Of a stretch of 64,000 bases of DNA, positions 46,985 to 53,004 are shown one piece after another. The notes beneath the pieces are model-generated. The model saw nothing but the letters and a program-made list of their open reading frames with translations. It did not search any database and was not told the DNA's origin. Both the position numbers and the translations under genes were made by a program. Source of the DNA: Halocatena pleomorpha (GTDB taxonomy: Archaea; Halobacteriota; Halobacteria; Halobacteriales; Haloarculaceae); the NCBI RefSeq assembly GCF_003862495.1, contig NZ_RRCH01000014.1:186001-250000 (forward strand). Reading direction: 5' to 3'. Numbering within the stretch: the stretch's first letter is position 1; each line of letters opens with the position of its first letter.

Positions 46985-47209
46985 CTAGTCGAATTCGTTC
47001 CGGTGTCGCTGGCGCTGGCGGGTATCCCACGCTTCGAAGAGACCGTACTCAGTCATTGTGTCCATGCCAGCGAGCGCTGCGCTGAGTTTGAGTCCGACGA
47101 GTGGGACATCAGCAACGGTGATGATCGCGTCGGCCCGAACGATTGCTCCGTCTCGGAGGACGACATCAACGAGATCGACAACGCCGTCCTCGGGTCGTTC
47201 TGGTTTCAT
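46985..47209 (-). CDS. gvpM: Gas vesicle protein GvpM
   Basis: 74 residues, GvpA-like (VDLVDVVLRDGAIVRADAIITVADVPLVGLKLSAALAGMDTMTEYG). Minor hydrophobic GvpA homologue needed for gas-vesicle formation in haloarchaea, probably at the nucleation stage. Last gene of the leftward operon, six bases after gvpL. Confidence 0.88.
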   Translation of the reverse strand: MKPERPEDGVVDLVDVVLRDGAIVRADAIITVADVPLVGLKLSAALAGMDTMTEYGLFEAWDTRQRQRHRNEFD

Positions 47210-47215
47210 CTGTTA

Positions 47216-48034
47216 TCAGGGTTCAGTGTCATTCGCCTCGATCGTCGGTGCGAACGTGTAGGGTGGCCATGGGCCTGTATACCGGATTTTGACGCCCGGA
47301 TCGGCTGCTACGTCGTCAAGCAAGTCGTCGATGTCGTGCTGTTGCTCTTCGTGGACAAGGAGCGCGAGCCGGGTTTCTCTCGTCATCTCGTCGTCGGTAT
47401 CAGGTTCCATCTCCAGCGTCGTCCGTTCGTGACCGAGATCGTGAAGGTCGCGCGCGATCGGTTCGAGTTGCTCAATGAGAGCCGCCGTCCGATCGGCACG
47501 CTGTTGGTGTTTCAACGTCTCTAATCGCTGCTCGTACTGGCGTTCGAGGAGATGGCTCGTTCCCGCGGAGGACTCGGCTATCTGCTCGTTAAGTTCGACT
47601 AATCGTTCATCGTCGCGTAACGTTTCCTCCACGGTGGCTTCATCGCGCCGAACTTCGACGCGGTATTCCCAACACTCTGTCATCTCCTCAAGCTGTGACG
47701 CAAACGTCTCCCGCTCGCGGTCGAGCCACGCACGGACTCGCTCGTCGTCCCCTCGAAGAATCGTGTCGAACTGAAACGGGATCGGTGTGCCAAAGCGGTC
47801 TCCAGCGGCGTCGATGACGTTTTGATGCTCCAATAGCCACTTTCGAACCACATCCACATCGGAGGTGTCATACAGCGTCTCACACTCGTGTACCACGATC
47901 CCGATCGTTTCTGTCCGTATAAGATACACGTCCTCCCCGTCGACACCGGTCGTTGAGAACGCAGATCCCTCTGTCTCCGGACACCTTACGACACAGTACA
48001 GATACCGACCGGTTTCGAACGAGCGATCAGTCAT
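47216..48034 (-). CDS. gvpL: Gas vesicle protein GvpL
   Basis: 272 residues, GvpF/GvpL family. The N-terminus is GRYLYCVVRCPE and the C-terminus KIRYTGPWPPYTFAP, both conserved in the family. GvpL interacts with other accessory Gvps and is required for vesicle assembly. The middle (150-230) is a charged helical coiled-coil region. Overlaps gvpK by eight bases. Start chosen at MTDRSFETG. Confidence 0.92.
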   Translation of the reverse strand: MTDRSFETGRYLYCVVRCPETEGSAFSTTGVDGEDVYLIRTETIGIVVHECETLYDTSDVDVVRKWLLEHQNVIDAAGDRFGTPIPFQFDTILRGDDERVRAWLDRERETFASQLEEMTECWEYRVEVRRDEATVEETLRDDERLVELNEQIAESSAGTSHLLERQYEQRLETLKHQQRADRTAALIEQLEPIARDLHDLGHERTTLEMEPDTDDEMTRETRLALLVHEEQQHDIDDLLDDVAADPGVKIRYTGPWPPYTFAPTIEANDTEP

Positions 48035-48356
48035 TGTCGATCGGTTCGTGAGTGGTTCCTTGCTGTGGGGGTTCCTCGACTGATCTGACGGCGTCTGCAA
48101 CGAGTCCGTCGAGTCGGTTGCGCAACTGTCCGACTGATTCCTCGATCCCTTCTTCCTCTTTGATCGCCGTTATCTCCGCGTCGAGCGCGGCGAACTGTGC
48201 ACCGACCCGCTCGACTTCCTCATCAGTGAGATCGCCGGACTCCATTCGACGGATCGCTTCCCGTTCCATGGCTTCGATCAGTAGTTCGACGATCGTTATC
48301 ACGAGCGTCATCAACCCATCGCGTGCGTTTTCTCCGTCGATATCAATCTGTGTCAT
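48027..48356 (-). CDS. gvpK: Gas vesicle protein GvpK
   Basis: 109 residues matching GvpK: LMTLVITIVELLIEAMEREAIRRMESGDLTDEEVERVGAQFAALDAEI. Essential accessory protein in haloarchaeal vesicle formation. Overlaps gvpJ by 14 bases and gvpL by eight, strong translational coupling. Confidence 0.93.
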   Translation of the reverse strand: MTQIDIDGENARDGLMTLVITIVELLIEAMEREAIRRMESGDLTDEEVERVGAQFAALDAEITAIKEEEGIEESVGQLRNRLDGLVADAVRSVEEPPQQGTTHEPIDND

Positions 48357-48660
48357 CGATCACCGTCTCGGCGTCTTTTTTCGGAGCGACGGCTTCCTCG
48401 GCTTTCTCGTCACTCTGGTCACTCTGGTTACTTTCTGTAGCCTTTGCGACCCGCTGCATATCCGTTCCCTCTGGGAACTCAAGTCCGTACTCTGCGGCTG
48501 TATCGAAGGAGGCGATCGCGGCGCGGAGTTGTATTCCGAGCAACTCCGTGTCACCAACAGAAACAGCGATGTCGGCGTTGATGACGACACCTTTGTCCAG
48601 TACGAGTTCTACTACATCTGCGAGACTGTCTCCGTTGCGTGTCGGTTGTGCATTACTCAT
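48343..48660 (-). CDS. gvpJ: Gas vesicle protein GvpJ
   Basis: 105 residues, second GvpA-like protein: SLADVVELVLDKGVVINADIAVSVGDTELLGIQLRAAIASFDTAAEYG followed by a charged Asp/Glu/Lys tail. Required minor shell-type protein. Overlaps the upstream unknown gene by eight bases. Start at MSNAQPTRN rather than a 55-codon upstream extension that is the shadow of that gene's end. Confidence 0.92.
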   Translation of the reverse strand: MSNAQPTRNGDSLADVVELVLDKGVVINADIAVSVGDTELLGIQLRAAIASFDTAAEYGLEFPEGTDMQRVAKATESNQSDQSDEKAEEAVAPKKDAETVIDDTD

Positions 48661-49597
48661 TATCGTTCCTCTGGGTGTCAAATCGGGAGCCGTAGATTCT
48701 AGGCGGATTCGATACAGTCGACCGGCGCGTATCTCGTGGAACGGTCGAGACCTTCGTCCCAACTCGGAGATTGTGGGACGGCATCGTCGAGTAGGCGGTC
48801 GGGTTCTGGGTGGATGGCTGTCCAATGTCGCCGGTCGACTCGGTTACACGTTCGTTGGCCTGCTCGCGCAACTCTGCGAGGCGGTCGTGTGTTTCAAAGA
48901 GCCCTTCGCGGAATTCCGTGACCGCGTCGAGCAGCTTCGACTGTATCGCTGCCTGCTTCATCTGCCCTTGCGTTCCCGACGCCATCGCGGCCACATCTCC
49001 AGCATCGTCGATCGAATCAGTGAGTGCCGTGCCGCTATTGGACTCCTTTACAGCCGTTTCGGCCAGCTGTTTCAACGCGACGACCACGATCCAGTTGCTC
49101 CCGTCGTTTCCATCGACGAACGCGGACACGGCCGTCTTGAATTCGTCTTTGTTCTGGTGTAGCTTCCTCACATCGATCGCGTCGAGTAGTTCGTCGAATT
49201 CGATCAGTTGCAACAGGGCTCTGTATCTGATGGCTTCGTCCGGCGCTCCGTTGGCGATCGCGATCGGAATCCCGCTCGCATCAATCGCTTCGTCAATGTC
49301 GCTGTCGTCGATCGCACCGGATGCTTGTGTGAGATCGACCGCTTCGAGCAGTTCTCCGGCCGCTTCGATGACGGATCGGAGCTCCTCGATGTCGTCGTTG
49401 ATCTCCTGTGGTGTCTCGTCATCAACTAGTGATTTGACGGCTCCTTCCGCTCGTTCGACCAGTTTGAAGGCGTTCTCATCCGTCATCGAGTCAGCTCCGC
49501 CTGAATTCGTCTCAGAGTGCTCGTCGGTGGCTTGGATGGTCTCAGATAACCGTTCGAGCGTTTCTTCGACGGATTCGTTCGTGTCGAATCCGCTCAT
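48653..49597 (-). CDS. Unrecognised gas-vesicle-operon protein z (314 residues)
   Basis: Located between gvpH and gvpJ where haloarchaeal clusters usually carry gvpI, but longer and different. Residues 1-60 are acidic; 60-240 are helical with repeated hydrophobic blocks (LELLEAVDLTQASGAI-type, RYRALLQLIEFDELLDAID). The C-terminal 45 residues are basic and Ser/Thr-rich (MPSHNLRVGTKVSTVPRDTR), reminiscent of the charged GvpI type only in composition. Overlaps flanking genes by four and eight bases. No family name assigned; a role in gas-vesicle biogenesis is inferred from operon position. Confidence 0.7.
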   Translation of the reverse strand: MSGFDTNESVEETLERLSETIQATDEHSETNSGGADSMTDENAFKLVERAEGAVKSLVDDETPQEINDDIEELRSVIEAAGELLEAVDLTQASGAIDDSDIDEAIDASGIPIAIANGAPDEAIRYRALLQLIEFDELLDAIDVRKLHQNKDEFKTAVSAFVDGNDGSNWIVVVALKQLAETAVKESNSGTALTDSIDDAGDVAAMASGTQGQMKQAAIQSKLLDAVTEFREGLFETHDRLAELREQANERVTESTGDIGQPSTQNPTAYSTMPSHNLRVGTKVSTVPRDTRRSTVSNPPRIYGSRFDTQRNDNE

Positions 49598-50133
49598 GAC
49601 TCGTCTTCTGGTTCGTTTCGTTGCTCCAACTCTTCTACCAGCTGGTTGGCCAACGACTGGAGTTCTTCGGTCGACATCTCCTCAACACCCGTTCCGGCCT
49701 CTTCTTCTTCCTCTTCAGTTTCTTCTTCTTCCTCTTCAGTTTCTTCTTCTTCCTCTTCAGCCTCTTCTTCCTCCTCAGCTTCTTCCTCTTCGGCCTCTTC
49801 TTCTTCCTCTTCAGTTTCTTCTTCTTCCTCCTCGGCTTCTTCTTCAGCCTCTTCTTCGGTCTCCTCATCTTCAGTCTCCTTCTCAAACGCACCTGATAGC
49901 ACGTCAGTGATCGATGGTCGCTCGAACCGCTCATCGAACGCCTGACCGAGTCGTTCTCCGACTCGACGCCCGACGATTTCACCGAGTTGCCGCCCGACCA
50001 TCTCTCCGCTCGCGTGCTTATACGCCTCTCGATTGATGTCGATCTTTTCCCCGAGCGTTTCTGTGTCTGCTTCGCTGGACAGATTCTCTCGTAAACGCGA
50101 GAGCTTCTGTGCTGTCTCTTCTTTTTGAGTCAT
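49594..50133 (-). CDS. Unrecognised gas-vesicle-operon protein y with Glu-rich tract
   Basis: 179 residues. The N-terminus is helical with SGEMVGRQLGEIVGRRVGERLG, a glycine-regular segment. Residues about 88-150 are an almost uninterrupted Glu-rich low-complexity tract built from repeated EEE-T/A-EE units; the C-terminus returns to a helix (ELQSLANQLVEELEQRN). The DNA of the tract is a near-perfect internal repeat. Overlaps the following gene by four bases. No homologue recognised. It may be a flexible acidic spacer or vesicle-surface protein. Confidence 0.7.
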   Translation of the reverse strand: MTQKEETAQKLSRLRENLSSEADTETLGEKIDINREAYKHASGEMVGRQLGEIVGRRVGERLGQAFDERFERPSITDVLSGAFEKETEDEETEEEAEEEAEEEEEETEEEEEEAEEEEAEEEEEAEEEEEETEEEEEETEEEEEEAGTGVEEMSTEELQSLANQLVEELEQRNEPEDES

Positions 50134-50150
50134 GGTTGTTGGGTATCGGA

Positions 50151-50600
50151 TTATTCGTCAGTCGATTCCCCGTCTTCGAGAGCAGCCAATATCGCGTCCA
50201 ACAACACGTTCACGGCTCCGAACACGGCGTCGGACGGCGATGGGATTCGGCCTTTGAGTTCGTCTCCACTCGGCAAGCTGGGGAGAACGTCGTCCAAGAG
50301 ATCTCCGCTGATCAGGTTCGGCAGGCCATCATCGAGCAGTCCTGCGACGGCTGACAACAGGTTGCCGAGGAGATTCTCCGGTCCTGAAACAGCTGTGATG
50401 TCGAGAACGACCTCGTCGAGATCAACCTCAAGCCCGAGGAGATCGAGAAACAGCCCCTCTAGGTCGAGATGAAGCACTCGGGTCTCCGCCTCGTCCTCAG
50501 CTTCGTCGTTTCCATCGGCGTTTTCGGCTTCTTCTCCCCCGTCTGCCAGTAGTAGCGGTGTCTCAGTGCGGTGCTTTCTCTGAACGAGCGTTTCCATCAT
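50151..50600 (-). CDS. Unrecognised gas-vesicle-operon protein x with LLGLxV/LLGNLL motif
   Basis: 149 residues. An acidic N-terminus is followed by LDLEGLFLDLLGLEVDLDEVVLDITAVSGPENLLGNLLSAVAGLLD. This matches a motif seen in exported or surface proteins of actinobacteria and haloarchaea (my recollection of the pattern, not a database result). The C-terminus is hydrophobic-acidic (AVNVLLDAILAALED). It overlaps gvpH by four bases and precedes gene y by 17 bases. Function in vesicles is inferred from position only. Confidence 0.7.
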   Translation of the reverse strand: MMETLVQRKHRTETPLLLADGGEEAENADGNDEAEDEAETRVLHLDLEGLFLDLLGLEVDLDEVVLDITAVSGPENLLGNLLSAVAGLLDDGLPNLISGDLLDDVLPSLPSGDELKGRIPSPSDAVFGAVNVLLDAILAALEDGESTDE

Positions 50601-51043
50601 TGTTTTTCCTCCGTCGGTCGGAGCCGAAATTCGAGGACACCGTTCGTGAGGTTACTCGTATCGATCGTGAGTAACTGCCTCCCGAGTGGAATGCGTTCCT
50701 CGACTGTTCCGTCGATTCCGAGCAGTAGCTCGTCGTCGGAAACGCTGGTCGACACGCGTTCCGGATCGATCTCGGGGATATCGATCGTGACCAGTACGTC
50801 CTCGTCTTCGTACCGAACGGCGATCGGTCGATCTGACGGACTCGGAACGTTCTGCGGACGGGCGGAACGGGGTTCGAACTCCGAGAGGTTGCCGGTGCTG
50901 ATTGAGTACTCGTAGCCGAGTTCTGTTGGACCACGAGAACTCGACCCGTCTTCGTGGCGTTGACTCTCGGTGGCAACTATCTCAAGCAGCTCCCGGAGCG
51001 TTCGGATGATTCCACCGCGTTCAGTGTCGTTGTCGTGTGTCAT
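50597..51043 (-). CDS. gvpH: Gas vesicle protein GvpH (Hsp20-like)
   Basis: 148 residues. The C-terminal 90 residues have an Hsp20/alpha-crystallin fold (VRYEDEDVLVTIDIPEIDPERV, then NGVLEFRLRPTEEK), preceded by a charged N-terminal helix. GvpH acts as a chaperone-like accessory and is not essential in haloarchaea. Overlaps gvpG by four bases. Confidence 0.85.
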   Translation of the reverse strand: MTHDNDTERGGIIRTLRELLEIVATESQRHEDGSSSRGPTELGYEYSISTGNLSEFEPRSARPQNVPSPSDRPIAVRYEDEDVLVTIDIPEIDPERVSTSVSDDELLLGIDGTVEERIPLGRQLLTIDTSNLTNGVLEFRLRPTEEKQ

Positions 51044-51291
51044 TGTTTTACCTGGATCTTAGTGCTCAGTGTCTCGTGGGCTTGATTTGCGACATCGAGC
51101 TGTGTCTGTAGCTCCTCCGACCGGCGTTCGTACTCCGCGCGAGACCGCTCTCCGAGTTCGAACAGGAGTCGGTTTTCTTTCATGTCATTTTTGATCTCAT
51201 CCCGATCGTACAGTTCCTCGACGGCCATCGCCTGAATGACCGTGAGAATCGACGTGAATGGTCTGATAAATAGGTCATCGAGTAGAAACAT
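51040..51291 (-). CDS. gvpG: Gas vesicle protein GvpG
   Basis: 83 residues, GvpG pattern MFLLDDLFIRPFTSILTVIQ followed by AMAVEELYDRDEIKNDMKENRLLFELGE and a coiled-coil tail. Accessory protein of the essential set. The start shares a base with the gvpF stop. Confidence 0.9.
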   Translation of the reverse strand: MFLLDDLFIRPFTSILTVIQAMAVEELYDRDEIKNDMKENRLLFELGERSRAEYERRSEELQTQLDVANQAHETLSTKIQVKQ

Positions 51292-51920
51292 TATTGGGAA
51301 CTGATCTCGATATCCACAAAGTTATACGGAGCCCACGGTCCCGTATACTGGACGGTCACAGAGTCACTGTATTCGTCGGTGATGGTATCCACAGCGCTGT
51401 CGAACGCGCTCCGTTCGTTCCGGTTGACCAAGTACGAACGATTGACAACGAGTCGATCGCTAAAGAGATCGTTTTGTGCCTCCTGCTCGCTTACGGTTGC
51501 GAGTCGGTTCGTGGTGGATTCACGCACGGCGTCCCGATCGATGGTCGTCTCCTCGTCTACAATGAGCTTCACCCCGAATTCGACCATCCCGTCCATTTCC
51601 CGCAGTGCCTGAGTGAACGCTCGCCGTCCACCGCGCAGTACGTTCTTCAACGGACGTTCGTTTTTGAAGGTCATTCCGAACTGCATTGGAACGACAGTTC
51701 GTCCCTCGTCCCAGAACATGACCGTTTGGAGGACTTCATCGTGGGCACGGACGTTCTCCTCGGTCTCCTCGGGATCCATCGTGTGTATATCCGACGTGAT
51801 CGCTGAGAGCGTCCGGTGGTCGACCGTGTAGGCTCGCGTCGCTCCTTCGACGCCCTCGATATCGATCCCTAACTCCTCGTTCTCGATCACTCCGTAGGCG
51901 TACAGATACTCCTCGCTCAT
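51291..51920 (-). CDS. gvpF: Gas vesicle protein GvpF
   Basis: 209 residues. GvpF family: YLYAYGVIENEEL at the start, VPMQFGMTFKNERPLKNVLRGG in the middle and YTGPWAPYNFVDIEI at the end. GvpF binds GvpA and is thought to nucleate the vesicle. First gene of the ten-gene leftward operon. Confidence 0.93.
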   Translation of the reverse strand: MSEEYLYAYGVIENEELGIDIEGVEGATRAYTVDHRTLSAITSDIHTMDPEETEENVRAHDEVLQTVMFWDEGRTVVPMQFGMTFKNERPLKNVLRGGRRAFTQALREMDGMVEFGVKLIVDEETTIDRDAVRESTTNRLATVSEQEAQNDLFSDRLVVNRSYLVNRNERSAFDSAVDTITDEYSDSVTVQYTGPWAPYNFVDIEISSQ

Positions 51921-52098: not shown

Positions 52099-52377
52099 AT
52101 GACGAGTGAGCGTCCAAACACGACCAGCCTCGTAGAGGTGCTCGATCGAGTGTTAGACAAGGGTATCGTTATTGATATCTGGGCCCGCATATCGGTCGTC
52201 GGGATCGAGATCCTCACCATCGAGGCACGCATCGTCGTCGCGTCCATCGACACGTTCTTGCATTACACCAAGGAAATGTCTAAGATCGAACAAGCTAGTC
52301 AATCAGATGACGACGAAGCCCTCGAAAACCTCGATATCGGGACCTCTCCGATGGTAGAACCCGATTCGGGGGTGTAA
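52099..52377 (+). CDS. gvpA: Gas vesicle major shell protein GvpA
   Basis: 92 residues. The shell core (SLVEVLDRVLDKGIVIDIWA, then the VGIEILTIEARIVVASIDTF segment and LHYTKEM) matches GvpA nearly residue for residue, with a longer acidic tail (QSDDDEALENLDIGTSPMVEPDSGV). GvpA polymerises into the gas-filled shell. It stands alone as the first rightward gene, with gvpO 81 bases downstream. Start at MTSERPNTT; an upstream in-frame ATG at 52009 lies between promoter and gene and is unlikely. Confidence 0.95.
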   Translation: MTSERPNTTSLVEVLDRVLDKGIVIDIWARISVVGIEILTIEARIVVASIDTFLHYTKEMSKIEQASQSDDDEALENLDIGTSPMVEPDSGV

Positions 52378-52458
52378 CACGATCGACGCGCTGATGATTC
52401 GAGCGATATTTCAGCCGTCGTGCTGGTCTCACACACCGTTTCCCCTTGATTGACCATT

Positions 52459-53004
52459 ATGGAAGAACAAGACGTAACCCCGGAGGCGTACACGGTGGAT
52501 GAGCTCTCAGATGAGATCGAATCGATCGATGATCCTGCGACGCTCAAGGAGATGTACGACGCCGAGACCGAACAGCAGAATCGAACAGGAGCCAAAGAGG
52601 CCATCGAAGCGCGACTCGAAGAACTGGACGCTGATGCCAATACGAAGGCGGAGTCCATCGAAGAAACGAGAGACGCGATCGAACGCAGTCTCGAATCGAT
52701 CGACGGGACCGAAGACACGAGTGGCGACTCTGATGAGGCGGTACGCGGTTCCATCGGAGAAATCCAAGCGCACGTTCGTGATCGGTTGCCAGAGCTGATC
52801 GATCAACCGCTCGATTCGATTATTGAGGTGGATCGGGACGAAGAGGGGTGGCGAGTCATCGTTGAATGCATCGAACGACGTTCGGTGCCGGATACACAGG
52901 ACATCCTTGGTCGGTATGAGATCCGTCTCGGTGCGGACGGACAGATCCATCGGTACCGGCGTCGCAACCGGTATCGACGGGACGACACCAGTCCCGTGGA
53001 GTGA
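52459..53004 (+). CDS. gvpO: Gas vesicle protein GvpO
   Basis: 181 residues. The conserved C-terminal half (EGWRVIVECIERRSVPDTQD, then ILGRYEIRLGADGQIHRYRRRNRYRR) is diagnostic of GvpO, preceded by a helical charged N-terminus. GvpO is essential for haloarchaeal vesicle formation and influences expression of the cluster. Directly follows gvpA; gvpC and gvpN, which usually lie between them, are missing. Confidence 0.92.
   Translation: MEEQDVTPEAYTVDELSDEIESIDDPATLKEMYDAETEQQNRTGAKEAIEARLEELDADANTKAESIEETRDAIERSLESIDGTEDTSGDSDEAVRGSIGEIQAHVRDRLPELIDQPLDSIIEVDRDEEGWRVIVECIERRSVPDTQDILGRYEIRLGADGQIHRYRRRNRYRRDDTSPVE

Follow-up and report, generated by a model that had tools for sequence, protein, structure and literature searches.

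A long-form GvpI and a probable accessory gene set in a gas-vesicle operon of Halocatena pleomorpha

The length of gas vesicles in Halobacterium depends on GvpI; its loss results in very long vesicles, and the protein binds GvpH (PMC4390858, PMC7688916). Homologues of gvpI with N-terminal extensions of >200 residues are known from Natrialba magadii and Haloterrigena turkmenica (PMC3403918), and the long form of GvpI is thus not new, having been reported in 2012 for Natrialba magadii. GvpC is an outer-surface vesicle protein. Haloarchaeal gvp clusters without gvpC were treated as reduced sets, and Vac-negative status is listed for several species without GvpC (PMC4390858). The names gvpX, gvpY and gvpZ are used as placeholders in gas-vesicle papers (PMC4390858, PMC7688916).

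We analysed a window of 64,000 nucleotides from Halocatena pleomorpha (contig NZ_RRCH01000014.1, positions 186,001 to 250,000), in which the minus strand carries gvpF-G-H, ORF149, ORF179, ORF314 and gvpJ-K-L-M in this order, with gvpA and gvpO divergent on the plus strand (Table 1). A preliminary description had placed genes for 149, 179 and 314 residues between gvpH and gvpJ, and had noted overlaps of four to eight bases and one 17-base gap. The junctions agree: 4-base overlaps at gvpH/ORF149 and ORF179/ORF314, an 8-base overlap at ORF314/gvpJ, and the 17-base gap at ORF149/ORF179. Of the features it had pointed out, ORF179 contains the glycine-regular segment as well as the Glu-rich tract, and ORF149 the LLGL/LLGNLL motif. 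The H-to-J order is the same in Halocatena marina DFN5 and Halobacteriales archaeon YIM A00010, and a matching series (H, 176 aa, 138 aa, 317 aa, J) is found on H. salina plasmid NZ_CP096022, which is the closest record with annotation. H. salina keeps the three-gene arrangement at a protein identity of 67-73%, and the differences at codon positions 1/2/3 are 33/14/65 for ORF149, 21/20/52 for ORF179 and 62/44/95 for ORF314. Because the arrangement recurs in H. salina and the differences are biased toward position 3, all three are real genes; the codon-position differences show that selection acts on them at the protein level. The H. salina gene after gvpL (L030:8473-8715) carries the public label gvpJ, yet is GvpM-like by position and profile.

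Table 1. Features of the gvp locus, in positions of the window.
Feature	Position	Strand	Basis
gvpM	46985..47209	-	NF046091 E=6.6e-36, above cut-off
gvpL	47216..48034	-	PF06386 E=5e-59; NF045778 E=4.7e-100
gvpK	48027..48356	-	PF05121 E=9e-24
gvpJ	48343..48660	-	NF046090 E=1.8e-42, above cut-off
ORF314, gvpI (long form)	48653..49597	-	profile, hhalign, BLASTP, relatives
Basic GvpI signature tail of ORF314, NPTAYSTMP..STVP..RIYGSRF	48653..48814	-	residues 262-314, pI 10.8
ORF179, Y/Z-type glycine-zipper protein, partner of X	49594..50133	-	relatives and motif comparison
ORF179 C-terminal motif MSTEELQSLANQLVEELEQR	49618..49677	-	resembles first half of the SAP-like C-terminus of Z
ORF179 Glu-rich tract	49700..49857	-	recently arisen tandem repeat; short in relatives
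ORF179 glycine-zipper segment GEMVGRQLGEIVGRRVGERLGQ	49942..50007	-	motif comparison
ORF149 (X)	50151..50600	-	acidic N-terminus, LLGNLL core, C-terminal hydrophobic helix; class-wide family
LLGNLL core of X	50325..50483	-	54-position profile A3, E=1.9e-28 in own genome
gvpH (Hsp20-like)	50597..51043	-	PF05455 E=2e-9, above cut-off
gvpG	51040..51291	-	PF05120 E=1.2e-15; NF045779 above cut-off
gvpF	51291..51920	-	PF06386 E=1.8e-43
gvpA	52099..52377	+	PF00741 Gas_vesicle match G000:C6:238126-238242; same place as annotated gvpA in H. salina; start placed at internal ATG (mechanical ORF starts 52009)
gvpO	52450..53004	+	profile match in locus survey; same place as annotated gvpO in H. salina

The preliminary description held that none of the three genes matches GvpI, and for ORF314 this fails. 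A profile made from the C-termini of ORF314 relatives only, with no annotated GvpI among them, matched the annotated GvpI of Halobacterium NRC-1 (E=5.3e-12) and that of Haloplanus (5.3e-11). GvpI residues 14-118 were aligned by hhalign with ORF314 residues 214-311 (probability 97.7%, 2e-12), and pairwise BLASTP between the two proteins gave 3e-9. Of 80 haloarchaeal gvp loci picked by name, nearly all had one gene matching the same profile in their gvpH-gvpJ region. ORF314 directly precedes gvpJ with two genes separating it from gvpH, whereas in most other loci GvpI has H and J as its immediate neighbours. We regard ORF314 as GvpI with near certainty. Since a sensitive profile search places it as a clear GvpI, the "three unfamiliar genes" of the preliminary description become two genes and GvpI. 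The three are contiguous and overlapping in Halocatena, as would suit one new module unrelated to GvpI, but ORF314 bears the GvpI signature and in most loci a gene of its type is alone in the gvpI slot, with X or a zipper gene absent beside it there; we give that earlier reading practically no credence. Scans of ORF314 against Pfam and NCBIfam returned nothing above cut-off, and a hit to HcsL (E=0.019) was dismissed as noise. ORF314 as a Halocatena-specific protein was ruled out by its relatives and the profile matches across haloarchaea.

The conserved unit of GvpI is thus one long helix plus the basic tail NPTAxSTMP..STVP..RIYGxRF, and in most haloarchaea sampled an acidic helical N-terminal extension is added to it. 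ORF314 shares the gvpH-gvpJ slot, the helix and the STMP/STVP/YGxR tail with the short, basic GvpI of Halobacterium salinarum, and differs from it by ~210 additional acidic N-terminal residues and in overall pI (4.3 vs 10.0). ORF314 as a whole, with a pI of 4.26, is not a basic protein with a pI near 10; its tail (residues 262-314) has a pI of 10.8. Reported long GvpI forms are likewise not basic overall, and the tail, not the overall charge, was therefore taken as defining GvpI. An AlphaFold model of ORF314, of weak confidence overall, has helices throughout, with residues 207-254 forming a confident helix and the tail disordered. Homology with the Halobacterium protein suggests that ORF314 pairs with GvpH and limits vesicle length.

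Other arrangements of these genes were seen in second gvp clusters. The H. pleomorpha genome has one on contig C21 (L064, C21:212000-228000). Its gvpI (245 aa, L064:4964-5701) is displaced to a site downstream of two gvpO-like genes, and gvpM is closely followed by a zipper gene resembling ORF179 (127 aa, L064:11542-11925). In the second clusters of H. marina and YIM A00010 (L032, L073, L075) a gvpH-gvpI pair is found downstream of gvpO, outside gvpF-M, placed as if moved as a unit. The former G-J slot of the H. marina second cluster is occupied by an ORF of 237 aa that begins like GvpH and contains a helix like that of GvpI. On Halalkalicoccus jeotgali plasmid 1, a lone GvpI-like gene (L034:5866-6651) has no annotated gvp gene within 6 kb.

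ORF149 and ORF179 belong to undescribed families. No Pfam or NCBIfam family was above cut-off for ORF149 and its scanned relatives, nor for ORF179 and the Y and Z proteins scanned, and no paper on the LLGNLLC motif came up in a literature search. ORF149, which we call X, is acidic, has an LLGNLL core free of Cys and a zipper gene directly downstream, and occurs in a genome with gvp genes. The AF2 model of X (strands 43-66, helices 77-90 and 122-143) is of low confidence, with a mean pLDDT of 64, and a Foldseek search with this model gave no PDB match. A tblastn search of plasmids with X had matches in Halocatena only; X as a Halocatena-specific family is ruled out by the presence of its core in 130 of 391 Halobacteria genomes. 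In some lineages X proteins are 600-840 aa long and have degenerate ~18-residue repeats (PISALRSAASRVWDVVTS-like; L070, L082, L148, L152, L153), and L153 has one 54-base repeat. Secreted-looking LLGNLLC proteins of haloarchaea (L056:1501-2286 and L057:1498-2076) share the LLGLxVxL..LLGNLLxAVAGLLD core with X, in their case a terminal LLGNLLCAVAGLLDP core. Unlike X, they carry a Tat-like leader, contain a Cys within the core, stop immediately after it and lack a zipper partner; they form a distant, apparently exported branch of the X core.

The occurrence of X was compared with that of gvp genes in the 391 genomes, a sample of one class, Halobacteria, 161 of which had GvpF/L above cut-off. X and gvp were found together in 129 genomes, X without gvp in 1, gvp without X in 32 and neither in 229. 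When X was permuted within families the overlap reached at most 111 in 20,000 draws, and within genera at most 127 (0/20,000 reaching the observed 129); family and genus labels covered 353 genomes, every positive included, and the control is for these labels, not for a full tree. In seven informative genera 30/30 X-positive genomes were gvp-positive, as were 5/57 of the X-negative ones. Bacteriorhodopsin, used as a control, was not positively associated with gvp (odds ratio 0.48). Comparison of the positions of X and GvpF/L matches placed X within 10 kb of a gvp match in 24 genomes from six families (~0.7 expected under random placement), and in most other genomes X is distant from gvp. The sole genome with X and no gvp match, G257, belongs to genus g70, and its genus-mate G345 has both.

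These results bear on whether X belongs to gas vesicles at all. X, Y and Z might instead form a separate system of the cell surface, the membrane or granules that has simply been inherited together with gvp clusters lacking GvpC, as the lack of linkage in most genomes and the distant LLGNLLC-core proteins with a Tat-like leader would suggest. The association nevertheless holds within genera, physical linkage arose in six families, and X is present in only 1 of 230 genomes without gvp, and we consider a separate system improbable. X and its zipper partners very probably constitute a gas-vesicle accessory system of GvpC-less haloarchaea. The new vesicle-associated surface or assembly module that the preliminary description thought possible is in this respect supported for ORF149 and ORF179 by consistent co-occurrence with gvp, and falls for ORF314, the GvpI. 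The co-occurrence in gvp loci that it had proposed to look for is borne out in that X tracks gvp (129/130), but mostly at the genome level, the genes usually being outside the gvp locus.

Each of the 41 inspected X loci has genes for acidic glycine-zipper proteins next to X, one or two per locus and as a rule directly downstream; they were detected by motif pattern and not by profile. The usual arrangement is X followed by the zipper genes Y and Z, mostly away from the gvp locus, and at many loci the last zipper gene (Z) ends in a SAP-like motif. ORF179 lies directly downstream of X, has a glycine zipper, an acidic linker and a C-terminal LQSLA-type motif, and retains the first half of the SAP-like motif. 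ORF179 itself has a narrow distribution and its link to Y and Z rests on short motifs. Proteins of the ORF179 type are also neighbours of gvp genes in Haladaptatus and Halococcus, in several MAGs and in the second Halocatena clusters; at the Haladaptatus gvp loci the zipper gene is beside gvp and X is absent there. GxxxG-type repeats are shared by ORF179, Y and Z with the glycine-zipper/YtxH-type Pfam families PF05433, PF13488 and PF12732, but all scores are below the Pfam cut-offs, and the acidic linker and SAP-like C-terminal motif are specific to this set of ORF179, Y and Z. In ORF179 the Glu-rich tract is the product of a local expansion of a tandem repeat; it is short in the relative from H. 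salina (138 aa) and is not to be taken as conserved. Low-complexity family matches for it were dismissed as noise. ORF149 and ORF179 are a compact two-gene version of the widespread X-Y-Z set, located inside the gvpF-M operon in Halocatena.

Among gvp-positive genomes X and GvpC are mutually exclusive. With a Halobacterium GvpC query, a GvpC homologue was detected in 14/32 X-negative and 0/128 X-positive genomes, one weak match (5e-6) in a 673-codon frame being discounted; GvpC and GvpD were each searched with one query. The exclusivity is also seen inside genera, with X in G156 and GvpC in G161 of genus g24, and X in G122 and GvpC in G120 and G132 of genus g15. Neither X nor GvpC was detected in 18 gvp-positive genomes, and therefore neither is always needed; G027, G203, G246, G272 and G427 are among gvp-positive genomes of this kind, which may have diverged homologues or some third solution. 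Since the two types of cluster may have come down as inherited blocks, replacement is not proven by exclusivity alone. An alternative in which X tracks the loss of GvpD/E instead of GvpC is disfavoured, since six GvpC-positive genomes without detected GvpD are also without X. The GvpC query found no homologue in the H. pleomorpha genome, where GvpN above cut-off was also absent, and no sequence match to GvpC was seen in the X-positive genomes tested. X shares with GvpC only the proposed role, and differs in its architecture (LLGNLL core, glycine-zipper partners) and in its usual location outside the gvp locus.

As the X set is nearly confined to gvp-bearing species and never found with GvpC, it may do GvpC's job. 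The best overall explanation, which we hold to be reasonably probable, is that ORF314 is GvpI and that X and its zipper partners stabilise or shape the GvpA shell in GvpC's stead. X would most likely sit on the GvpA shell, attached through the hydrophobic core and the helix at its C-terminus, while its acidic part would point toward the solvent; the zipper proteins would oligomerise and hold X on the shell, and together they would do the stabilising or shaping job done elsewhere by GvpC. Binding and stabilisation of the shell by X are proposed tentatively. It is likewise possible, at less than even confidence, that X-Y-Z is an unrecognised coat or stabilisation system that replaces GvpC in most gvp-bearing haloarchaea, of which Halocatena merged a two-gene version into gvpF-M; on this reading X-Y-Z was overlooked because it is usually outside the gvp cluster. 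The missing likeness between X and GvpC, the low-confidence X model without a PDB match, the 18 genomes with neither protein and the Vac-negative listing of several species count against a coat role. The main rival is a role in assembly, tethering or regulation, in which X and the zipper proteins are not a coat and nucleate, tether or cluster vesicles, or regulate their formation. Glycine zippers often serve in oligomerisation or in contact with membranes, and SAP-like motifs, such as the one at the end of Z, can be nucleic-acid binding in other proteins. These properties, and the position of the Halocatena genes inside an operon of low-abundance assembly proteins (gvpF-M), speak for such a role, but a general assembly function leaves the exclusivity with GvpC unexplained and GvpD loss is no better correlate; we judge it rather unlikely.

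The comparison provides a rule for naming long GvpI proteins, the genes for which are labelled "hypothetical protein" in the plasmid records examined. A gene set that is co-inherited with gvp and exclusive with GvpC suggests that the gvp set as drawn is incomplete. X and its zipper partners are specific genes to add when GvpC-less vesicles are reconstituted, for biology or for the engineering of acoustic nanostructures.
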